Part shown: piece after piece, positions 3,301-56,110 of the stretch
Position numbering within the stretch: position 1 is the first letter of the stretch
How the letters are laid out: each line of letters starts with the position of its first letter
Assembly (NCBI RefSeq): GCF_020833685.1
Contig: NZ_JACKZY010000001.1
Coordinates: forward strand, 1,314,578 to 1,378,577
DNA: 64,000 nucleotides
Origin: Nitratireductor sp. B36
Lineage (GTDB): Bacteria > Pseudomonadota > Alphaproteobacteria > Rhizobiales > Rhizobiaceae
Reading direction: 5' to 3'
Made by a program: the position numbers and the translations under genes
Notes under the pieces: model-generated
Databases searched by the model: none
What the model was told of the DNA's origin: nothing
Seen by the model: only the letters and a program-made list of their open reading frames with translations

Positions 3301-4170
3301 GGCATTCGGATAGGCGCAGATCAGCGTGTCGGCCACGCCCGAAAGCTCCGCCAGATGCGGGCGCATGGCCGCAGCGCCCAGCGCGCAGTTCAGACCGATC
3401 GTAATCGGCTTTGCATGGCGCACCGAATGCCAGAAGGCCGTCGGCGTCTGGCCGGAAAGCGTGCGGCCGGAAAGATCGGTGATCGTGCCGGAGATCATCA
3501 CCGGCAGGCGAATGCCACGCTCGGCGAAGATTTCCTCGCATGCGAAGATCGCCGCCTTGGCGTTGAGCGTGTCGAAAATGGTTTCGATCAGCACGATGTC
3601 CGCGCCGCCATCGAGCAGCCCGCGCAACTGCTCCCCATAAGCAATGCGCAGATCATCGAAGGTCACGGCACGATAGCCGGGATTGTTCACATCCGGCGAA
3701 ATGGAGGCGGTGCGGTTGGTCGGCCCGAGTGCGCCTGCCACGAAACGGCGCACACCATCCTTTTCTTCGGCGCGCTTGGCCGCACGGCGGGCAAGTCGCG
3801 CACCGTCGCGGTTCAACTCATAGACCATGTCCTCCATGCCGTAATCGGCCTGGGCGATGGTCGTGGAGGAGAAGGTATTCGTCTCGAGAATGTCCGCACC
3901 CGCCATCGCGTAGCGAAAATGCTCTTCCTCGATGGCCTTGGGCTGCGTCAGGTTGAGAAGGTCATTGTTGCCCTGCTGGTGGCAGGCGCAGCCGATGAAG
4001 CGGTCGCCCCGGAAATGATCCTCGCCGAAGCCGAGCCCCTGGATCTGTGTGCCCATCGCGCCGTCAAGGATGAGAATGCGCTCGCGCGCGGCCTTGTGCA
4101 GCGCGGCGAAGATCTCGGAGCCATCCGGCTTTTCGCCGACGGGGCCAAACAGTTCATCGATAGACGACAT
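388..4170 (-). CDS. metH: Methionine synthase, cobalamin-dependent
   Basis: Transfers the methyl group of 5-methyltetrahydrofolate to homocysteine through enzyme-bound cobalamin, making methionine and tetrahydrofolate in the cytoplasm. The 1260-residue protein is full length (E. coli MetH is about 1227). The N-terminal homocysteine domain has the zinc cysteines C262 (in GLNCALG) and C325/C326 (in GGCCGS). A pterin-binding domain follows from about residue 365. The B12 domain has the DxHxxG motif with axial ligand H782 (GDVHDIGK), and the C-terminal reactivation domain is complete. It is monocistronic here, with 134 bp before the next leftward gene. That gap carries a perfect palindrome that probably sets its regulation. 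Identification is secure; the start has only a weak ribosome binding site. Confidence 0.97.
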
Positions 4171-44336: not shown

Positions 44337-45866
44337 CTATTCGACTTCAACCTCGTTGAGGCGCATGCGGCTGTCCGGCGGCGCGATGAAATTCTTCACC
44401 CGCTTGTTGACGCCGTAAATCGCATTGAGGTTGTAGAGCGGCATTTCGAGCGCGCGATCGGCCGCATAACGGGCGATCTCCTGCAGCACTTTCTCGCGCT
44501 TTTCAGCGTCGATCATCGGGCGCTGCGATTCCAGAAGCGCATCGAGCTCCTTGTCGCTGTCATACGGGTTCCAGCGCTCGCCCGTGTGGTACATCAGGTA
44601 GGCGGTGTTGTCGTAGTCGAGCGTCCAACCGCCCCAGCTCTGCTGGAACATTTCGCCGGTCTTGCCCTGCGGGATGATATCGTTGAGCAGGACATTGGTC
44701 TCATACGGCTTGATGGTGGCGTTGAGGCCGACCATCTGCAGATAGCTGGCGACCGCCTGGGTGACTTCACCGAAGGTGGCATCATTGCCGCGAATGTCGA
44801 TCTGGACCGGTGCGCCGGCAGCAACGCCCGCTTCCTTCAGAAGCTCCTTGGCCTTTGCCTGATCGAAGGGCAGCGGCTCCATCTCCGGGTCGTAACCGAA
44901 GGACAGTTCCGACTGGAAGGATGCGATCTGCTTGGCCTGTCCGCCGAGAACAGCGTCGATGATGGCCTTGCGGTCGACAGCCATGATCATCGCCTTGCGT
45001 ACGCGCTCATCAGCGGTGATGCCGTTGCCGGTGTTGAAGCGCAGGGCATAGACCGTCGGGCTGGTGACCGAGCGGATTTCGAGCTTCTCATCCGCCTCGA
45101 TGGTGGGAACCATGGAGATCGGAATGGTCGGCGGGATGACGATGTCGACACGGCCGGCCTGCAGCTCGGCAACGGCGGTGGCCGGCTCCGAGATGAAGCG
45201 GTACTCGACAGCGTCGAGCTTCGGTGCACCGCCCCAGTGATCGGCAAAGGCTTCAAGCTTCACGCCGACCTTCGGCTCGTAAGAGGTCATCTTGAACGGG
45301 CCGGTGCCAACGGGATTTGCGTTGACGAAGTCTTCTTCGTTCTCCGTGACGTATTTCGGCGGCACGATCATCGCGCCATAGCCGGCGAGCTTGGTGATCA
45401 GCACCGGGTCGGGTTGGGTCAGAACCAGATCCACCGTGAAATCGTCAACGATCTCGACCTTTTCGATGACGGCATAGTTGGAGCGCTGCGGGCCCTTCTT
45501 GCCTTCTTCGCCAAGCAGGCGGTCGAAGGTGAATTTCACGGCCTCGGCGTTAAAATCCTCGCCATTGTGGAACTTGACGCCTTCGCGCAGCTTGAAGCGG
45601 ATGCGCTTGCCCTCGTCGAGCACGTCCCACTCGGTGGCCAGTGCGGGCACGATCTTCGTGTCGGGACCGCGATAGACCAGACCGTCATAGATGTTGGTGG
45701 CGACGGACGACCAGTTCACCAGGAAGGTGTCGATGGGGTCCCAGCTGCCCGGATCCTGCGGGGAAGAAATGGTGAGCGTGCCTGCGGCCTGCGCCGGCAT
45801 CGCGCCGAACGGCAGCGCCGCCAGCACGGCGGCCAGCAATGCGCCGCGTGTTTTGCCGAATGTCAT
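44337..45866 (-). CDS. Peptide-type ABC transporter substrate-binding protein, system A
   Basis: 509-residue SBP_bac_5-family protein with a signal peptide ending near AMPAQA-AGT. Family blocks include WDPIDTFLVNWSSVATNIYDGLV, GVKFHNGEDFNAEAVKFTFDRL and NPVGTGPFKMTSYEP. Members bind di- and oligopeptides, nickel complexes or opines, and the ligand cannot be told from sequence. It follows the fused ATPase gene by 39 bp, so ATPase comes first in this operon, an unusual order. Confidence 0.93.
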   Translation of the reverse strand: MTFGKTRGALLAAVLAALPFGAMPAQAAGTLTISSPQDPGSWDPIDTFLVNWSSVATNIYDGLVYRGPDTKIVPALATEWDVLDEGKRIRFKLREGVKFHNGEDFNAEAVKFTFDRLLGEEGKKGPQRSNYAVIEKVEIVDDFTVDLVLTQPDPVLITKLAGYGAMIVPPKYVTENEEDFVNANPVGTGPFKMTSYEPKVGVKLEAFADHWGGAPKLDAVEYRFISEPATAVAELQAGRVDIVIPPTIPISMVPTIEADEKLEIRSVTSPTVYALRFNTGNGITADERVRKAMIMAVDRKAIIDAVLGGQAKQIASFQSELSFGYDPEMEPLPFDQAKAKELLKEAGVAAGAPVQIDIRGNDATFGEVTQAVASYLQMVGLNATIKPYETNVLLNDIIPQGKTGEMFQQSWGGWTLDYDNTAYLMYHTGERWNPYDSDKELDALLESQRPMIDAEKREKVLQEIARYAADRALEMPLYNLNAIYGVNKRVKNFIAPPDSRMRLNEVEVE

Positions 45867-45905
45867 GGAAAGTCCTCCGTTTCTTTTGCGTTTGTGTTCC
45901 AGTGT

Positions 45906-47744
<1,839 letters not shown>

Positions 47745-47999
47745 AGAAACTCCCATCTGAAGGACAGGCCGATTTGCCCCATTGAACCCGGCGGCGTCTG
47801 GCCCTAGTCTTTAGACCAAGAGCGAAGGTAGACGCTTGGTTTCCGCGCTTTCTTGAGCGGCCCTGTCGGCAAAAGAAAACATTTCCAGACATTTTGTCAA
47901 TAAATTATCATTGAAGAAACGTGAAATTGGTTTTGCCGTTGTGGGATCCGGCTCAGGGCCTGCTCGCCGCAGCCGATAAATTGATCACGCACACATGGC

Positions 48000-48027
48000 T
48001 TGACAGTTTCGTTTCGCCAGCTAGGCT
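48000..48027 (+). promoter_or_regulatory. Promoter of the amiC operon
   Basis: A consensus -35 TTGACA at 48000-48005 is followed after 16 bp by TAGGCT at 48022-48027. Transcription would begin near 48034, placing the hairpin at 48054 inside the leader. The -10 is imperfect. Confidence 0.5.
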
Positions 48028-48053
48028 TGAGCCATAATAAGATTTTGGCATCT

Positions 48054-48102
48054 GGGCCTCGCCGGGAATATTGTTGTTCCCGTCGGGGCCCTTTGCGTTT
48101 TT
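48054..48102 (+). terminator. Leader terminator-like hairpin with ANTAR-type hexaloop, upstream of amiC
   Basis: Bases 48054-48069 pair with 48076-48091 (16 positions, one mismatch and two G-T wobbles), closing a 6-nt loop ATTGTT at 48070-48075. The loop has A at position 1 and G at position 4, the rule described for ANTAR-protein RNA targets. A T-rich tail (TTTGCGTTTTT) ends at 48102. This is where an intrinsic terminator relieved by AmiR would be expected. The usual first hairpin of a two-hairpin ANTAR target was not found. Confidence 0.6.
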
Positions 48103-48113
48103 GGGGAACGGGT

Positions 48114-49274
48114 GTGAACACTTATCCGATCGGCGTTCTGTTTTCGCGTAGCGGTGGCTATAGCCGGCCGGCCGAGCAGGGCTACTTTGGCGCATTGGCG
48201 GCAGTGGCCGACATCAATGCCGATGAGACCTACCCTTTCCAGCTTGAAGCCCATCATGCGGACCCGAAAGGCAATGCCGACCGCTATGCCGAGCTTTGCC
48301 GCGACCTGATCCGCCAGACAGGCGCGCAGCATATTGTCGGCTGCACCACCTCATGGAGCCGCAAGGAGGTGATCCCGGTCGTCGAAAAACTCGATGCCCT
48401 CTTGTGGTACCCTTGCGTCTATGAGGGTTTCGAGGTTTCGGAAAACCTCGTCTACATCGCCGCTTGCGCCAACCAGCAGCTTGTGCCGCTGCTCGACTAT
48501 ATCGTTCCGCGCTTTGGCGGACGCGGTTTCCTGACTGGCGCGAATTATATCTGGGGGTGGGAGACAAACCGCATCGCACGCGACGTGCTGACCCGCTCCG
48601 GCGGCAGCGTTCTGGGCGAACGCTACGTGCCCATCGGCGATGATGATATCGACCATCTCATCGAGGAAATCCGCGAAAAGCGGCCTGACTTCATCCTCAA
48701 CAATCTGATCGGAAATTCCTCCTATGCCTTTCTCGCCGCCTATCAGGCGCTCGGAAAGGAAGACCCGGCTTTCCTGCCGGAAAACTGCCCTGTCGTGAGC
48801 TGCAATCTCTGCGAGAACGAGACCACACGGCTCGGCACCATCGCAGAGGGACAATACACCGTATCGAGTTATTTCCGGGCGCTGGCGAGCGAAGAGAACG
48901 ACCGCTTCGCCGCCCGGATGAAGGCTGAAAATCCTGAACAGGTGGCGGACGCATTTTTCGTTCAGGCCTATGCCGCTGTGGTGATGATCGCCGATGCCAT
49001 ACGCCGCACCGGAAGCGATGAAGCACAGCGGGTGCTGGAAGCGGTCCGTGAGCATGAGACGACAACGCCGCTTGGTTCGTTGCGCGTCGATCCTGCGACC
49101 AATCACGTCAACCTCCACGCCCATATCGGCCGCACCCGTGCCGATGGCGATTTCGAGATCGTGCATCATTGCCCCAAAGCCATCGCGCCGGACCCGTTTC
49201 TGACGGCGACACCGCTCGACCGGCTCTATGGGGGCACCGCTGCCGATGCGCGGCAGCTGAGGGTCGTGCGATGA
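48114..49274 (+). CDS. amiC: AmiC-like cytoplasmic ligand sensor
   Basis: 386 residues, almost the length of Pseudomonas AmiC (385). It belongs to the periplasmic-binding fold family Peripla_BP_5 and has YPIGVLFSRSGGYSRPAEQGYFGAL, IVGCTTSWSRKEVIPVVEK and TGANYIWGWETNRIARD. There is no signal peptide, as expected for a cytoplasmic sensor that sequesters AmiR and releases it on amide binding. The start is GTG at 48114 with GGGG 7 nt upstream, directly after the leader T tract. It overlaps amiR as ATGA. The ligand may be a short amide or a peptide-like compound imported by the transporter downstream. Confidence 0.9.
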   Translation: MNTYPIGVLFSRSGGYSRPAEQGYFGALAAVADINADETYPFQLEAHHADPKGNADRYAELCRDLIRQTGAQHIVGCTTSWSRKEVIPVVEKLDALLWYPCVYEGFEVSENLVYIAACANQQLVPLLDYIVPRFGGRGFLTGANYIWGWETNRIARDVLTRSGGSVLGERYVPIGDDDIDHLIEEIREKRPDFILNNLIGNSSYAFLAAYQALGKEDPAFLPENCPVVSCNLCENETTRLGTIAEGQYTVSSYFRALASEENDRFAARMKAENPEQVADAFFVQAYAAVVMIADAIRRTGSDEAQRVLEAVREHETTTPLGSLRVDPATNHVNLHAHIGRTRADGDFEIVHHCPKAIAPDPFLTATPLDRLYGGTAADARQLRVVR

Positions 49275-49888
49275 GCCCGGCACTTGCCCATACGCCCAAT
49301 TTCGTCGGCTGGCGGGCGCTGATCCTGCACCGGCCGCACCAGAATGTGGACGCGCTCACCGCGCAATGTGCACGCATCGGCATCGCCGCCGAACAGGCAT
49401 GGCCGACGCTGGAAAACCGCGACGCCATGCGCGATTTCAACGTGCTGCTGATCGATGCCGATATGGGCCATGACGAGCAGTTTCCATGGGCGCCCGGCTT
49501 GGCGCCCATGCCCATGATCGCGCTGATCGGTTCGGAAGCTCCCGGCCGCATCGCCTGGACGATTGGGCAGGGCGCGGATGCGCAGCTTTTGAAGCCCATT
49601 GGCAGTGCCGGGCTTTACAGCGCGCTGGTCGTGGCCAGCCAGGGTTTTCTGCGGCGCACGGCGCAGACCGAAGAGATCGCCCGGCTGAAGGATCAGCTCG
49701 CCCAAAGGCAGCTTGTTGCAGAGGCAACGGCCATCCTGATGCTGAAGCACAATTGCGATGCTGGCACGGCCTATAACCACCTTCGCAAGACAGCCATGGC
49801 CGAACGGCGCTCCATCGAGAAAGCTGCTGCCGGCATCATCGCAAATCTTGATACAGACGGACGGACGAATGTCACAAACGGTCGCTGA
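49271..49888 (+). CDS. amiR: AmiR-like ANTAR-domain antiterminator
   Basis: 205 residues, close to Pseudomonas AmiR (about 196). An N-terminal pseudo-receiver domain (about 15-125) is followed by a coiled coil (RLKDQLAQRQLVAEA) and a C-terminal ANTAR RNA-binding domain with AILMLKHNCDAGTAYNHLRKTAMAERRSIEKAAAGII. Such proteins bind hexaloop hairpins in leader RNA and prevent termination. The gene is coupled to amiC by ATGA overlap. Its target is likely the hairpin at 48054-48102, giving autogenous control of the whole rightward operon. It overlaps the following permease gene by 20 bp. Confidence 0.93.
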   Translation: MSPALAHTPNFVGWRALILHRPHQNVDALTAQCARIGIAAEQAWPTLENRDAMRDFNVLLIDADMGHDEQFPWAPGLAPMPMIALIGSEAPGRIAWTIGQGADAQLLKPIGSAGLYSALVVASQGFLRRTAQTEEIARLKDQLAQRQLVAEATAILMLKHNCDAGTAYNHLRKTAMAERRSIEKAAAGIIANLDTDGRTNVTNGR

Positions 49889-50759
49889 GACACAGTCACC
49901 AGTGGCGACGCCTTCGGTGATGATGCGCCTTCTGCGCCGACCGTTGGCGCTGACCGGGCTCATCATCATTATGGTGGTCGTGCTGGCGGCACTCTTTGCG
50001 CCATGGCTCGCGCCTTACGATCCTTATGAGCAGTTCTTCGAGGGTCTGACCATTGAGGGCGCACCACTTCCGCCCAATGCACAGTTCTGGTTCGGCACCG
50101 ACCTTGTGGGGCGGGACCTCTTCAGCCGTTTGATCTATGGCGCGCAAACCTCGCTGATCATCGGCGTGGTGGCCAATGGCATTGCCGTGGTGATCGGCTC
50201 GGCGGTGGGCATTTCCGCCGGCTATTTCCGCGGCTGGGTCGACACGGTTCTGATGCGCTTTACCGATTTGATGATGGCCTTTCCGGCCCTGCTTCTGGCC
50301 ATCGTTCTGGCAGCGATCTTCAGCCCCAGCCTGTGGATCGTGGCCATGGTGATCGCCATGGTGAACTGGGTGCAGATCGCCCGCGTGACCTATACCGAGA
50401 CGCGTTCCATCGCCGAACGCGACTTCGTCGTGGCCGAGCGCGCCATGGGCGCGGGCGCGGGGCGCATCCTGTTCCGCCACATTCTGCCGCATCTGCTCTC
50501 CACCATCATCGTGTGGGCGACGCTCGGCATCGCCACCACCGTGCTTTTGGAAGCAACGCTTTCCTTCCTCGGCATTGGCGTTCAGCCGCCCATTCCCTCC
50601 TGGGGCAACATCATCTTCGAGAACCAGACCTATTTCACCTCCGCGCCCTGGCTCGTCTTCATTCCGGGCGTGGCCATCCTCGCGCTGGCACTGGCCTTCA
50701 ACCTCGTGGGTGATGCGCTGCGTGACATTCTCGACCCGACACAGCAGGGGCGCCACTGA
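49869..50759 (+). CDS. Peptide/amide-type ABC transporter permease (DppC family), system B
   Basis: 296 residues: a cytoplasmic N terminus, first helix, then FWFGTDLVGRDLFSRLIYGAQTSL, the AERAMGAGAGRILFRHILPH loop and LSFLGIGVQPPIPSWG. The start at 49869 lies inside the end of amiR and gives the usual family length. It is the first transport gene in the AmiCR operon, with permeases before the binding protein, which is an unusual order. Confidence 0.93.
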   Translation: MSQTVAETQSPVATPSVMMRLLRRPLALTGLIIIMVVVLAALFAPWLAPYDPYEQFFEGLTIEGAPLPPNAQFWFGTDLVGRDLFSRLIYGAQTSLIIGVVANGIAVVIGSAVGISAGYFRGWVDTVLMRFTDLMMAFPALLLAIVLAAIFSPSLWIVAMVIAMVNWVQIARVTYTETRSIAERDFVVAERAMGAGAGRILFRHILPHLLSTIIVWATLGIATTVLLEATLSFLGIGVQPPIPSWGNIIFENQTYFTSAPWLVFIPGVAILALALAFNLVGDALRDILDPTQQGRH

Positions 50760-51679
50760 TGCTTGCCTATATCACCCGCCGCCTGATCCAGACTGCGCTG
50801 ATCCTGCTTGGCATCAGCTTCGTGACCTTCGTGCTGCTCTATCTCGTACCGGCGGACCCCGCGCGCCAGATTGCAGGCCGCAGCGCCACCGCTGCAACGG
50901 TGGAGAACATCCGCGAACAGCTTGGGCTGAACCTCCCCTTCTATGAGCAATATCTGCGCTATCTCGGCGGACTTTTGAACGGTGATCTCGGCCGCTCATA
51001 TCTGCAGAAAACGGAAGTTTCCGAACTCATCGCTTCCCGCCTTCCCGCGAGCCTTCTCCTGATGGTCGGCGCGATCTTCTGCGAACTCGTGCTGGGCCTC
51101 ACCATGGGGGTCGTGGCAGCGCTGAAGCGCGGCTCGCGCACCGACGACACGCTGATGATCGCCTCATTTGTCGGCGTGTCAGCCCCGCAATTCGTGATCG
51201 GCATTCTGCTGCTCTACATCTTCGCAGTGAAACTCGGCTGGTTCCCCATCGGCGGCTACGGCACGTTTGCGCATCTCGTCCTGCCCTCCATCACGCTCGG
51301 CTTTCTGGGGGCCGGCTGGTATTCCCGCATGATGCGTTCATCGCTGATCGACGTGCTCAGGCAGGATTATATCCGCACCGCCCGCGCCACCGGTGTGACC
51401 CGCGCAAAAGTGCTTTTCGGCCATGCGCTTCCCAACGCCATCCTGCCCATCATCGCCATGATCGGCATCGATATCGGGCTCTTCATGTCGGGCATTGTGG
51501 TGGTGGAAAGCGTGTTTGGCTGGCCCGGCATCGGGCAGCTCGCCTGGCAGGCAATCCAGCGTGTCGACATTCCCATCATCATGGGCGTCACGCTGGTTTC
51601 GGCCTGCGCCATCGTTCTCGGCAATCTGCTTGCCGATCTGATCACTCCGCTGATCGACCCGCGCATCAAGCTGCGCTGA
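50759..51679 (+). CDS. Peptide/amide-type ABC transporter permease (DppB family), system B
   Basis: 306 residues starting MLAYITRRLIQTALILLG. It contains the RTARATGVTRAKVLFGHALPNAILP loop and ESVFGWPGIGQLAW. The start overlaps the DppC stop by one base (TGATG). It forms the channel with that protein. The first helix and the long periplasmic loop before helix 2 (about 30-100) are typical. Confidence 0.94.
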   Translation: MLAYITRRLIQTALILLGISFVTFVLLYLVPADPARQIAGRSATAATVENIREQLGLNLPFYEQYLRYLGGLLNGDLGRSYLQKTEVSELIASRLPASLLLMVGAIFCELVLGLTMGVVAALKRGSRTDDTLMIASFVGVSAPQFVIGILLLYIFAVKLGWFPIGGYGTFAHLVLPSITLGFLGAGWYSRMMRSSLIDVLRQDYIRTARATGVTRAKVLFGHALPNAILPIIAMIGIDIGLFMSGIVVVESVFGWPGIGQLAWQAIQRVDIPIIMGVTLVSACAIVLGNLLADLITPLIDPRIKLR

Positions 51680-51725: not shown

Positions 51726-53354
51726 ATGAGAAAACTGCTTCTGGCCGGCGTCGCCGCCGCTGCCCTTTCCACCTCCGCCATGCTTGTCCCTGCTCTTGCA
51801 GAAGACATCAAGCAGGGCGGCTCCATGACCGTGACCTACAAGGATGATGTTTCCACGCTCGATCCGGCCATCGGTTATGACTGGCAGAACTGGTCGATGA
51901 TCAAATCGCTGTTCGACGGTCTGATGGATTATGTGCCCGGCACCACGGAGCTGCGCCCGGAGATCGCCGAATCCTACGAGATTTCCGGGGACGGAACGGT
52001 CTTCACCTTCAAGCTGCGCGACGGCGTGAAATTCCACAATGGCCGCGACCTGACGGCCGAGGACGTGAAATACTCCATCGAGCGCACGGTGAACCCGAAG
52101 ACCCAGAGCCCCGGCGCCGGCTTCTTCGGTTCCATCAAAGGTTTCGAAGAAGCCTCCAGCGGCGATGCGGACGGGCTTTCCGGCATCACTGTGGTGGACG
52201 ATCACACCATCAAGTTCGAGCTCTCGCGGCCCGACGCGACCTTCCTCCACGTGCTGGCGCTCAACTTCGCCCATGTGGTGCCGAAGGAAGAGGTGGAGAA
52301 GCACGGTGCCGATTTCGGCAAGCACCCGGTCGGCTCCGGCGCGTTCAAGCTTTCCGAATGGACGCTTGGCCAGCGCCTCGTCTTCGAGCGGTTCGAGGAT
52401 TACTGGAACCCCGGTGTGCCGAAGCTCGACCAGATTATCTTCGAGGTTGGACAGGAACCGGTCGTGGCGCTTCTGCGCCTGCAGAACGGCGAAGTGGATG
52501 TGCCGGGCGATGGTATTCCGCCGGCGAAGTTCATCGAGGTACAGAACGATCCCAAGTTCAAGGACCTCATCATTCAGGGCGGACAGCTGCACACCGGCTA
52601 TGTGACCATGAATGTGAAAATGGAGCCCTTCGACAAGCCGGAAGTGCGCAAGGCCGTGAACATGGCCATCAACAAGGACCGCATCCTGCGCATCATCAAT
52701 GGCCGCGCCGTTGCCGCCAACCAGCCCCTGCCGCCCTCCATGCCGGGCTACGCCAAGGATTATGAGGGCTATGCCTATGATCCCGAAGCCGCCAAGGCGC
52801 TTCTGGCAGAAGCCGGGCTTGCCGACGGGTTCGAGACCGAACTCTATGTGATGAACACCGATCCGCAGCCGCGTATCGCGCAGGCGATCCAGCAGGATCT
52901 GAAGGCCATCGGCATCAACGCCTCGATCAAATCGCTGGCGCAGGCCAATGTGATCGCGGCTGGCGGCGAGGAAGATCAGGCGCCGATGATCTGGTCGGGC
53001 GGCATGGCGTGGATTGCCGACTTCCCCGATCCGTCCAACTTCTATGGTCCGATCCTCGGTTGCGACGGCGCGGTGCCGGGCGGCTGGAACTGGGCCTGGT
53101 ATTGCAATGAGGATCTCGATGCCATGGCGAAGGAAGCCGATGCCATGGTCGACCCGGCCAAAGCCGGCGAGCGCGAGGCCATGTGGCGCGATATCTATCT
53201 GAAGGTGATGGAAGACGCGCCATGGGCGCCGATCTTCAACGAAGAGCGCTTCACCATCCGTTCCGAACGCATCGGTGGCGACGACAAGCTGTTCGTCGAT
53301 CCGGTGCACATTCCCGTCCACTATGACGAGGTTTTTGCCAAAGATGTGCAGTAA
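51726..53354 (+). CDS. Peptide/amide-type ABC transporter substrate-binding protein, system B
   Basis: 542-residue SBP_bac_5 protein with a signal peptide ending near VPALA-EDI. Family motifs are STLDPAIGYDWQNWSMIKSLFDGLMDY, GVKFHNGRDLTAEDVKYSIERT and HPVGSGAFKLSEWTL. It is distinct in sequence from the system A protein. Its association with AmiC/AmiR and a formamidase favours a small amide-containing ligand over ordinary peptides (inference). It is followed by the amidase with an 11-bp overlap. Confidence 0.93.
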   Translation: MRKLLLAGVAAAALSTSAMLVPALAEDIKQGGSMTVTYKDDVSTLDPAIGYDWQNWSMIKSLFDGLMDYVPGTTELRPEIAESYEISGDGTVFTFKLRDGVKFHNGRDLTAEDVKYSIERTVNPKTQSPGAGFFGSIKGFEEASSGDADGLSGITVVDDHTIKFELSRPDATFLHVLALNFAHVVPKEEVEKHGADFGKHPVGSGAFKLSEWTLGQRLVFERFEDYWNPGVPKLDQIIFEVGQEPVVALLRLQNGEVDVPGDGIPPAKFIEVQNDPKFKDLIIQGGQLHTGYVTMNVKMEPFDKPEVRKAVNMAINKDRILRIINGRAVAANQPLPPSMPGYAKDYEGYAYDPEAAKALLAEAGLADGFETELYVMNTDPQPRIAQAIQQDLKAIGINASIKSLAQANVIAAGGEEDQAPMIWSGGMAWIADFPDPSNFYGPILGCDGAVPGGWNWAWYCNEDLDAMAKEADAMVDPAKAGEREAMWRDIYLKVMEDAPWAPIFNEERFTIRSERIGGDDKLFVDPVHIPVHYDEVFAKDVQ

Positions 53355-54288
53355 CTGCGACTACACCATTCACGGGCGACATCACCATTTCGGGTGGGAT
53401 CATTCGATCCCGCCCGCAGAACGGGTGACGCCGGGCTCGACGCTGGAATTCGAGTGTCTGGATTCCGGCTCCGGCCATTTTTCGCCCGACAGCACCGTGG
53501 ACGACATCGCCACGCTGGATTTCTCCAAGGTCAATCCGGTCAACGGCCCCATCTATGTGGAAGGGGCCAAGCCGGGCGACGCGCTGAAGGTGGAAATCTT
53601 GTCGTTCAAACCGTCCGGCTTTGGCTGGACGGCGAACATTCCCGGCTTCGGGCTTCTGGCAGACCAGTTCAAGGACCCGGCGCTGACGCTGTGGAACTAT
53701 GACGCGACCAGCCTTGCCCCGGCTGCCTTCGGCAAGCATGGCCGCGTGCCGCTGAAACCCTTTGCCGGAACCATCGGGCTGGCACCGGCGGAAGCAGGTC
53801 TCCACTCAGTGGTGCCGCCACGGCGCATGGGCGGCAATCTCGACATTCGCGATCTGGCGGCGGGCACCACGCTCTATCTGCCGGTCGAGGTGGAGGGCGC
53901 GCTGTTCTCCATCGGCGACACCCACGCTGCACAGGGCGATGGCGAAGTGTGCGGCACGGCCATCGAGAGCCAGATGAACGTGGCGGTGAAGCTCGACGTG
54001 GTGAAGGATGCCAACCTTGCCATGCCGCGCTTCACCACGCCAGGGCCGGTGACGCGGCATCTGGATGCGGAAGGCTATGAGGTGACGACCGGCATCGGCT
54101 CCGACCTCATGGAAGGGGCGCGGGCCGCCCTTTCCGGCATGATCGACCTTCTGTGCGCCACGCGCGGGCTCTCGCCCGAGGACGCCTACATGCTGTGCTC
54201 CGTGTGCGGCGACCTGCGCATCAGCGAGATCGTCGACCAGCCCAACTGGGTGGTCTCGTTCTACTTCCCGCGCATCGTTTTCTCGTGA
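53344..54288 (+). CDS. Acetamidase/formamidase family enzyme
   Basis: 314 residues, the usual length of the FmdA/AmdA family that hydrolyses formamide or acetamide to ammonia and the acid. Landmarks are FGWDHSIPPAERV near the N terminus, NPVNGPIYVEGAKPGD, GRVPLKPFAGTIG, GDTHAAQGDGEVCGTAIES (metal/active-site region) and LCSVCGDLRISEIVD. It is cytoplasmic with no signal peptide. The start at 53344 overlaps the binding-protein gene. Within the AmiC/AmiR operon it is the counterpart of AmiE in Pseudomonas, but from an unrelated amidase family. Confidence 0.92.
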   Translation: MCSNCDYTIHGRHHHFGWDHSIPPAERVTPGSTLEFECLDSGSGHFSPDSTVDDIATLDFSKVNPVNGPIYVEGAKPGDALKVEILSFKPSGFGWTANIPGFGLLADQFKDPALTLWNYDATSLAPAAFGKHGRVPLKPFAGTIGLAPAEAGLHSVVPPRRMGGNLDIRDLAAGTTLYLPVEVEGALFSIGDTHAAQGDGEVCGTAIESQMNVAVKLDVVKDANLAMPRFTTPGPVTRHLDAEGYEVTTGIGSDLMEGARAALSGMIDLLCATRGLSPEDAYMLCSVCGDLRISEIVDQPNWVVSFYFPRIVFS

Positions 54289-54298
54289 GAAAGGCCCT

Positions 54299-56110
54299 AT
54301 GACCATAGCGCGCGCCAAGGATATCATCTCAGCTACCGGCCTTTTGGAAGTAAGCGGGCTCACCGTGCAGGTGGCCACGCCAACAGGCGCGCGCACGGTC
54401 GTGGACGATCTGTCCTTCACACTGGAAAGCGGAAAGACCCTGTGCATCGCGGGCGAAAGCGGTTCTGGCAAATCCATGACCGCGCTTTCCCTGATGCAGC
54501 TTCTGCCAAAACCCATGGCACGGGTTTCAGCCGGCACCGCCATTCTGGCGGGGCGCGATATTCTCGCCCTGCCGGAAGCCGAGATGCGGCAGGTGCGTGG
54601 GCAGCGTATCGGCATGATTTTTCAGGAGCCGATGACATCGCTCAACCCGGTGCTTTCCATCGGCAAACAACTGGCCGGCGCGATTTCCGCCCATGGCGGG
54701 CTTTCTGAGAAAGCGATCCGTGCCCGAGCGCTTGAACTGCTCGATCAGGTGCAGATTCCCGAGCCCGCGCGGCGCTTGAAGCAATATCCGCACGAGCTTT
54801 CCGGCGGCATGCGCCAGCGTGTGGTGATTGCCATGGCGCTGGCCCAAAACCCGCAGATCCTGATTGCCGACGAGCCGACCACCGCGCTCGACGTGACCGT
54901 GCAGGCACAGATACTGGCGCTGATACGCAAATTGCAGGCCGACCTCGGCATCTCCGTCATCATGATCACGCATGACATGGGCGTGGTGGCCGAGATGGCG
55001 GACGACGTGCTGGTGATGCAGCATGGGCGCATGGTGGAGCACAGCCCCGCCAGCGTGATTTTCTCAAAACCGCGCCACCCATATACGCGCGAATTGCTCG
55101 CCGCCGTGCCACGGCTGGGCGAAATGACCGGCACCACGGAGCCGAAGCGCGTGGCAGCGCGCCCCGGAACCGGGCCGGACAAGCCGCTTGTTGCCGAACC
55201 GTTGGTTTCCGTAAAAGACCTGACCGTGCGCTTCGACATCAAGGGCGGCATCCTGCAACGCCCGGTACAGCGTGTGCACGCGGTGGAAGGTGTTTCCTTC
55301 GACATCATGCCGGGCGAGACGCTTTCGCTGGTGGGCGAATCCGGCTGCGGGAAGTCCACCACCGGCAAGGCGCTTTTGAACCTGATCCCCTGGCAGGGCG
55401 ATATTCGCGTCGGCGGGCGTTCCACGCGCGGGCTTGCGCCACGCGCCATGCGGCCCGTGCTGCGGGATGTGCAGATGATCTTTCAGGATCCCTATGCCTC
55501 GCTCGATCCGCGCATGCGGGTGGGTGATCTGGTGGCCGAGCCGCTGCAGATCCACGGGCTGGCAAGCGGTAGCGCGCTGGAAGACCGTGTGGCCTATCTC
55601 TTCAAACGCGTGGGGCTTTCGACAGATCAAATGCGGCGCTATCCGCATGAATTTTCCGGCGGACAGCGCCAGCGCATCTGCATCGCCCGCGCGCTTTCAT
55701 TGTCGCCAAAACTGATCGTGGCGGATGAATCGGTGGCCGCACTCGATGTCTCTATTCAGGCACAGGTGCTCGATCTGTTGCAGGACATCCAGAACGAGAC
55801 GGGCATGTCCTATCTCTTCATCTCGCACGACATGGCCGTGGTGGAGCAGATCAGCCATCGCGTGGCGGTCATGTATATGGGGCGGTTTGTGGAGATGGGC
55901 AGCCGAGCGCAGATATTCGAAAACCCGCAGCACGAATATACCAAGAAGCTGATGGCAGCAGTGCCGGTGGCCGACCCGTCACGCCCGCGCCGGGCATTCA
56001 TGGAAAAGGCGGAGGATTTGCCGAGCCCCGTTCATGGGCTCACCTATACGCCACCGCGACAAACTGCACACGACATTGGCGACGGGCATTTGGTGTGGCT
56101 GGGCGATTAG
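54299..56110 (+). CDS. Fused DppD-DppF ATPase, system B
   Basis: 603 residues with two ABC domains. The first (about 15-270) has [16 protein letters not shown] and [12 protein letters not shown]. The second (about 300-560) has GESGCGKS, FSGGQRQR and LIVADESVAALD. As in system A, DppD and DppF are one chain. It is the last gene of the rightward AmiCR operon and starts 10 bp after the amidase stop. Its presence last here and first in system A argues against the two operons being a simple inverted duplication. Confidence 0.94.
   Translation: MTIARAKDIISATGLLEVSGLTVQVATPTGARTVVDDLSFTLESGKTLCIAGESGSGKSMTALSLMQLLPKPMARVSAGTAILAGRDILALPEAEMRQVRGQRIGMIFQEPMTSLNPVLSIGKQLAGAISAHGGLSEKAIRARALELLDQVQIPEPARRLKQYPHELSGGMRQRVVIAMALAQNPQILIADEPTTALDVTVQAQILALIRKLQADLGISVIMITHDMGVVAEMADDVLVMQHGRMVEHSPASVIFSKPRHPYTRELLAAVPRLGEMTGTTEPKRVAARPGTGPDKPLVAEPLVSVKDLTVRFDIKGGILQRPVQRVHAVEGVSFDIMPGETLSLVGESGCGKSTTGKALLNLIPWQGDIRVGGRSTRGLAPRAMRPVLRDVQMIFQDPYASLDPRMRVGDLVAEPLQIHGLASGSALEDRVAYLFKRVGLSTDQMRRYPHEFSGGQRQRICIARALSLSPKLIVADESVAALDVSIQAQVLDLLQDIQNETGMSYLFISHDMAVVEQISHRVAVMYMGRFVEMGSRAQIFENPQHEYTKKLMAAVPVADPSRPRRAFMEKAEDLPSPVHGLTYTPPRQTAHDIGDGHLVWLGD

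Follow-up and report, generated by a model that had tools for sequence, protein, structure and literature searches.

A conserved mini-hairpin overlapping the terminator as probable AmiR target in the leader of a Nitratireductor amiC-amiR-transporter-amidase operon

Introduction

The leader of amiC in Nitratireductor sp. B36 raises the question of which RNA element an ANTAR protein would use to prevent termination ahead of its own gene, and whether one hairpin could be enough. Published results for Enterococcus faecalis and for the EutV structure differ on the number of hairpins, two or one, that ANTAR proteins need: in E. faecalis, induction was lost upon deletion of the upstream hairpin (P1) (PMC3369931), and work on a structure of EutV with RNA led to a new definition of the minimal site, a single hexaloop, and foresaw single-hexaloop sites (PMC8934654). 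In the published EutV scheme, the P2 hairpin is embedded in the terminator (PMC3369931, PMC8934654). Among the best matches by title and abstract opening in the open-access literature, a body of work outside which most subscription papers lie, nothing was found on AmiR leaders of the Rhizobiales, and no natural ANTAR terminator leader devoid of P1. Here, the leader was compared with those of its relatives, starting from a preliminary description of the window (64,000 nucleotides; contig NZ_JACKZY010000001.1, positions 1,314,578 to 1,378,577 of the forward strand), which had been made from the letters alone.

Results

Organization and distribution of the amiC-amiR operon

The features of the locus are compiled in Table 1. 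The genes amiC, amiR, two permeases, binding protein, amidase, and ATPase lie on one strand, and the same order was found in 41 of the 44 relatives checked; in the remaining three, the contig stretch stops before the last operon genes. This collinearity supports the view, already taken in the preliminary description, that the whole transporter-amidase operon is the unit of control, and the names AmiC and AmiR given there agree with the Pfam domains of the two proteins. No protein of the genome other than AmiR exceeds the ANTAR family cut-off, which makes AmiR the likely cognate protein of the leader. A weak partial ANTAR match (22.9 bits at a cut-off of 27.3) is located at 14919-15005 of contig C3 of the same genome (L002).

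AmiC homologues at E 1e-40 or better were detected in 127 of 297 genomes of the same family (paralogues included); the closest named relative, among the best 80 of 440, was that of Nitratireductor aquibiodomus (97% identity). In all 30 family loci examined first, amiR adjoins amiC. Together with 60 further loci, loci of other families, and those of the best 80 relatives, these 30 yielded 170 unique leaders with adjacent AmiR; one further row, L001, was excluded since its start falls outside the stretch. Twenty AmiC homologues first taken as lacking AmiR, four of which carry the leader pattern described below, could not serve as controls because 19 of them show partial AmiR downstream in a profile search; in their place, shuffles and the leaders before 1462 other ORFs were compared. 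A second ABC system of the peptide type occupies 44337-47756 on the minus strand and is oriented divergently to the amide operon. It also adjoins the operon in L143 and L144, lies farther away in L145 and L146, and is represented by weak paralogous matches only in most other loci checked.

Table 1. Features of the leader and operon (window coordinates).
Feature	Position	Strand	Basis
Predicted promoter: TTGACA (48000-48005), 16-nt spacer, TAGGCT (48022-48027)	48000-48027	+	Motif match only
5' extension of 13 nt (predicted) upstream of P2; no recognisable P1	48034-48046	+	Start site inferred
Antiterminator mini-hairpin P2, GGC-AUCUGG-GCC; proposed AmiR target	48047-48058	+	Conservation, sequence only
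Terminator stem-loop; mutually exclusive with P2 via 48056-48058	48054-48091	+	Fold, covariation
ATTGTT apical loop (A first, G fourth)	48070-48075	+	Not conserved
T-rich tail TTTGCGTTTTT	48092-48102	+	Direct read
amiC, amide-sensor-like periplasmic-binding-fold protein; GTG start at 48114	48114-49274	+	Pfam Peripla_BP_5
amiR, pseudo-receiver and ANTAR antiterminator protein	49271-49888	+	Pfam AmiR_N, ANTAR; best PDB match 1qo0 (AmiR)
Two ABC permease genes	49869-51679	+	Pfam
ABC substrate-binding protein	51726-53354	+	SBP_bac_5
Acetamidase/formamidase-family gene, start codon uncertain	53344-54288	+	FmdA_AmdA
ABC ATPase with two ATPase domains	54299-56110	+	Pfam

A terminator-like hairpin precedes amiC

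Direct reading verified the stem first reported in the preliminary description, with 15 of 16 positions paired (G48054-C48091 through T48069-G48076; the sole mismatch is C48062 x T48083), ATTGTT at its apex, and a T-rich tail, which is broken by GCG, before the GTG of amiC. The folding energy of the 93-nt leader was -39.2 kcal/mol, compared with a mean of -28.9 for shuffled sequences (z = -3.3), and none of 200 shuffles was equally low. In the 26 nearest leaders (near leaders), 85.5% of the cells of the terminator stem were paired, with 32 two-sided changes compared with 12.6 after shuffling; one basal pair (35-67) was present in just 11 of the 26. Leader stability and stem covariation thus support the earlier claim of a terminator-like hairpin before amiC, and 48054-48091 is most likely an intrinsic terminator. 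A simple terminator scan left the whole stem unreported and returned two partial stems only (two found, 1.0 expected). In a search against Rfam, no match near the gathering score was obtained for the window leader (best E 0.51; 12.6 bits at a cut-off of 41, on the other strand), and zero matches were obtained for five relatives (105,517 bases).

A mini-hairpin overlaps the base of the terminator

The preliminary description, according to which no second hairpin was clear, had overlooked GGC-ATCTGG-GCC at 48047-48058. The 3' arm of this mini-hairpin, P2, doubles as the base of the terminator, so that the two structures exclude each other. As in other ANTAR leaders, a P2 with a six-base loop thus lies over the terminator base (48047-48058 versus 48054-48091), and the loop has A at position 1; the G expected at position 4 is absent, positions 4 and 5 being U and G.

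The pattern G(G/A)C-N6-G(C/T)C, with the 3' arm starting a terminator with T-rich tail and AmiR adjacent, was found in 155 of the 170 unique leaders, compared with 3-13 of 170 in 20 sets of dinucleotide shuffles. Before other ORFs, 82 of 1462 leaders matched (25 with A first), and some of these 82 are amiC leaders on short contigs. Sorted by AmiC identity, P2 and overlapping terminator were present in 154 of 156 leaders at an identity of at least 40% and in 1 of 14 below. The 15 leaders without the pattern comprise 13 loci with AmiC of <37% identity, whose leader may be elsewhere, plus L180 and L090, the latter scored as a miss with the motif visible by eye. Where the pattern was found, loop position 1 is A in 153 of 155 leaders, including that of the window, position 5 is a purine in 132, and position 4 is G in just four. 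In a motif-free test, terminators were located first, which was possible in 150 of the 156 unique leaders with an AmiC identity of at least 40%. In 123 of these 150, the terminator base is spanned by a hairpin of 3 bp and a 6-nt loop, and 121 of the 123 read GGC..GCC; other loop sizes were found in 3-44 of the 150, 44 being the value for the next commonest size.

For the 26 near leaders, the RNAalifold structure consists of P2 and the upper stem of the terminator, and the arms of P2 are invariant in all 26; these leaders, like the 120 far (sister) leaders used below, had been preselected for GGC..GCC and a T tract and are therefore no test of P2 itself. The three base pairs are few and invariant and thus carry no covariation information, and the conservation of P2 could also reflect sequence recognition without pairing. 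Judged by its conservation, the AmiR recognition element is most likely 48047-48058, not the apical loop of the terminator.

To follow the competition between the two structures, growing 5' fragments were folded. Fragments ending at 48060, 48080, and 48086 had P2 in their minimum-energy fold, a different weak fold was preferred in the fragment ending at 48070, and P2 was displaced from 48088 on, once the 3' arm emerges. The predicted energies of the full terminator fold and the P2-forced fold (-33.5 versus -18.2) are ∼15 kcal/mol apart; therefore, AmiR would have to act within a short time. With P2 displaced, an AGAU/AUCU hairpin (48040-48053, loop UUUGGC) is possible beside the terminator; by eye, it is confined to the Nitratireductor leaders closest to that of the window.

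P1 is not found in the clade of the window

From the promoter motif, the transcript is predicted to start near 48034. All 26 near leaders received a promoter call of the same layout; a consensus scan did not list the promoter of the window. The predicted distance between start and P2 is 10-20 nt in 25 of the 26, and the one exception (L013, 55 nt) probably has a miscalled start. Among the 114 sister leaders with a promoter call, the distance is 18-29 nt in 77, 37-57 nt in 28, under 18 nt in six, and over 57 nt in three.

In the sister leaders, a hairpin scoring at least 9 within the 26 nt before P2 was present in 115 of 120, compared with 65.6 in shuffles. It ends 2-3 nt before P2 in 97 of the 115, its loop has 5-7 nt in 105, and its stems are diverse (CCGGC/GCCGG, TGGCG/CGCCG, TGACT/AGTCG; stem sequences were compared in 104 or fewer far leaders). 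In the clade of the window, hairpins before P2 were found in 16 of 26 leaders compared with 12.1 in shuffles, at scattered positions, and a P1 inside the predicted transcript was present in one of the 26, compared with 34 of 40 sampled far leaders. The P1 a few bases upstream of P2 that is expected of an ANTAR leader was accordingly not found in the window, a result that depends on the predicted start sites.

A tree was calculated by a short search from all 26 near leaders, every third far leader (40), and four outgroup rows. The near leaders form one branch (98% SH-aLRT support), and the presence of P1 is strongly clustered on the tree, with six changes compared with a shuffled mean of 22 (0 of 500 shuffles equally low). 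P1 may have been lost in this clade or may be primarily absent; the outgroup does not form one side of a branch and is long-branched. Two near leaders, L009 (Mesorhizobium alhagi) and L010, carry the hairpin GAC-AUUGAU-GUU (three base pairs, A1/G4 hexaloop), perhaps a remnant of P1.

Since P1 was not found, one mini-hairpin, P2, would carry recognition in this clade. The single-hairpin variant considered in the preliminary description may thus exist, given that P1 was found in only one of the 26 near leaders, with the correction that the hairpin would be P2 and not the terminator. That the AmiR leaders of the Nitratireductor-Chelativorans-Sinorhizobium-Brucella/Shinella group are natural single-hexaloop antiterminators, without P1, with ∼13 nt before P2, and with one GGC-AxxYGG-type hairpin sufficing, is a proposal to which we give even odds. 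It competes with a dual-hairpin leader, in which either a short P1 (e.g., AA-UAAGAU-UU, 48036-48045) forms upon AmiR binding or the start and P1 lie farther upstream. The P1 located 2-3 nt before P2 in sister leaders, the GAC-AUUGAU-GUU hairpin retained by L009 and L010, and AU-rich 3-bp candidates in some near leaders would be in line with this arrangement. However, only two A-U pairs are available in the window, the hairpins before P2 barely exceed the shuffles in this clade, and the predicted 5' extension is as short as 10-20 nt in all near leaders except one, so we regard a dual-hairpin leader as unlikely.

The apical loop and the amiC ribosome-binding site

The preliminary description had proposed ATTGTT as the ANTAR target and named conservation of the loop in homologous leaders as a check. 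ATTGTT does not pass it: an A1/G4 hexaloop is possible at the apex of the terminator in 6 of the 26 near and in none of the 120 far leaders, and five of the six (the window, three Nitratireductor records, and genome G146) represent one common sequence block. The corresponding loops are GATCTC in N. pacificus, GATCTT in N. soli, and GACGCT in Chelativorans. Moreover, the minimum-energy fold joins A48070 to U48075, which shrinks the loop to a UUGU tetraloop and makes the hexaloop a choice of register. Despite the presence of A1 and G4 and the identity of the loop in five Nitratireductor-type leaders, it is thus very improbable that AmiR binds the terminator hairpin via ATTGTT and thereby alters termination at this very hairpin; binding of AmiR there would stabilise the terminator, and the conserved P2 would go unexplained. 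ATTGTT was therefore dropped as an ANTAR site; it is probably not the target and looks like a passenger of the terminator stem.

Least probable of all is a ribosome-binding-site switch, in which GUUCCC (48076-48081) would cover the amiC ribosome-binding site by pairing with GGGAAC (48104-48109), and AmiR would free the site through its hold on the upstream hairpin: the complementarity is present, with similar sequence in several Nitratireductor leaders, but it amounts to six pairs versus a 15-pair stem, is by eye missing in N. pacificus, Stappia, and Sinorhizobium, and leaves P2 and the T tract unexplained, and this reading was dropped.

AmiR residues, loop position 4, and further sites

In EutV, G4 of the loop is contacted by Arg142, Lys149, and Glu160 and stacks on Tyr164 (PMC8934654). 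Among 158 AmiR sequences, the position of Arg142 is Arg in 157, that of Tyr164 is aromatic in 150, that of Met172 is Met in 157, and that of Lys149 is never Lys (V in 99, T in 31, I in 20, others in 8). The idea that loss of Lys149 explains the loss of G4 was abandoned because the Pseudomonas-type leader has no G4 despite the fact that P. aeruginosa AmiR has Lys at this position; it is also contradicted by G4 loops downstream of amiR in loci several of which have an AmiR without Lys149. Because the Pseudomonas-type leader likewise lacks G4, the requirement for G4 may be too strict for AmiR-type sites. In the P2 loop of the Pseudomonas-type genome (AAATGG; L259, about 3380-3411), G occupies position 5 in place of position 4, at variance with the published A1/G4; for the amiE leader, A and G are stated at loop positions 1 and 4 (PMC3369931).

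Just downstream of amiR in L126-L130 and L132 (amiC-amiR loci of other families), GGC-TATGCA-GCC-like hairpins overlap a terminator; their loops have T first and G fourth. In the genome of the window, the P2-plus-terminator pattern gave nine matches compared with five for a reversed-pattern control, and we propose no wider AmiR regulon in this genome. On the strand of the pattern, two of the nine pass the overlap test, the amiC leader (score 20) and the weak L257 (score 15). L252 was rejected as a further regulon site, as it lies inside an 860-codon open frame.

Discussion

The best explanation for these observations, with a probability of roughly 85%, is that AmiR would act as antiterminator of the amiC-amiR-ABC transporter-amidase operon via P2. 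The autogenous antitermination by AmiR suggested in the preliminary description is thus well supported, by the overlap of P2 and terminator in 155 of 170 leaders, but it would proceed via P2 and not via the ATTGTT element named there. Sequence comparison shows the terminator, P2, their overlap and its conservation, the operon, and the regulator genes; the events at the leader may be pictured as follows. RNA polymerase would start at TTGACA/TAGGCT, and the nascent RNA would form P2 first (48047-48058, loop AUCUGG). Without inducer, AmiC would hold AmiR, the 3' arm of the terminator would displace P2, and transcription would end at the T tract. Once AmiC has bound an amide, AmiR would bind the P2 loop and block base pairing of the terminator base with 48087-48091. 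AmiR holding P2 briefly would leave the upper stem in place and remove the pairs beside the T tract, and transcription would continue through amiC-amiR into the genes of transporter and amidase. As amiC and amiR are themselves located past the terminator, the circuit would be positively autogenous and fed by leaky read-through. The amide signal and the inhibitory role of AmiC in this picture are taken from P. aeruginosa (PMC3369931, PMC8934654).

The Pseudomonas amiE/AmiC-AmiR system resembles that of the window in having an AmiC-AmiR pair and a terminator before the operon, and in genome G692 (AmiR 88% identical to that of P. aeruginosa), AGC-AAATGG-GCT overlaps the terminator base as P2 does here. 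In G692, the leader precedes an ORF that we take to be amiE-like from its position and sequence, and the promoter is much farther upstream; in the window, in contrast, the leader precedes amiC and would control an ABC transporter and an FmdA-type amidase. In the eut leaders recognized by EutV (E. faecalis), P2 likewise lies within the terminator and has a 6-nt loop whose first base is A (PMC3369931, PMC8934654), whereas P2 of the window has no G4 and P1 was not found. In addition, AmiR differs from EutV in being controlled by AmiC and not by phosphorylation (PMC3369931, PMC8934654). The NasR/nasF system also places a nitrogen operon under ANTAR control via a hairpin motif; however, NasR has its own sensor domain, and the nasF leader has both hairpins (PMC7496416). 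NasR binds lone P2 at ∼12 μM compared with ∼1 μM for P1P2 (PMC7496416), and from the published EutV and NasR data, poor binding would be predicted without P1 (PMC3369931, PMC7496416).

What merits testing is that P1 and G4 are missing. Leaders that have P1 and leaders that do not, on the two sides of a supported branch and before the same operon, would make the question of two hairpins or one directly testable by leader swaps. The conservation of P2 without G4 suggests that searches restricted to A1/G4 would overlook AmiR-type sites. If the single-hexaloop reading and the family-wide P2 without G4 are true, neither P1 nor A1/G4 would be essential to ANTAR antitermination.
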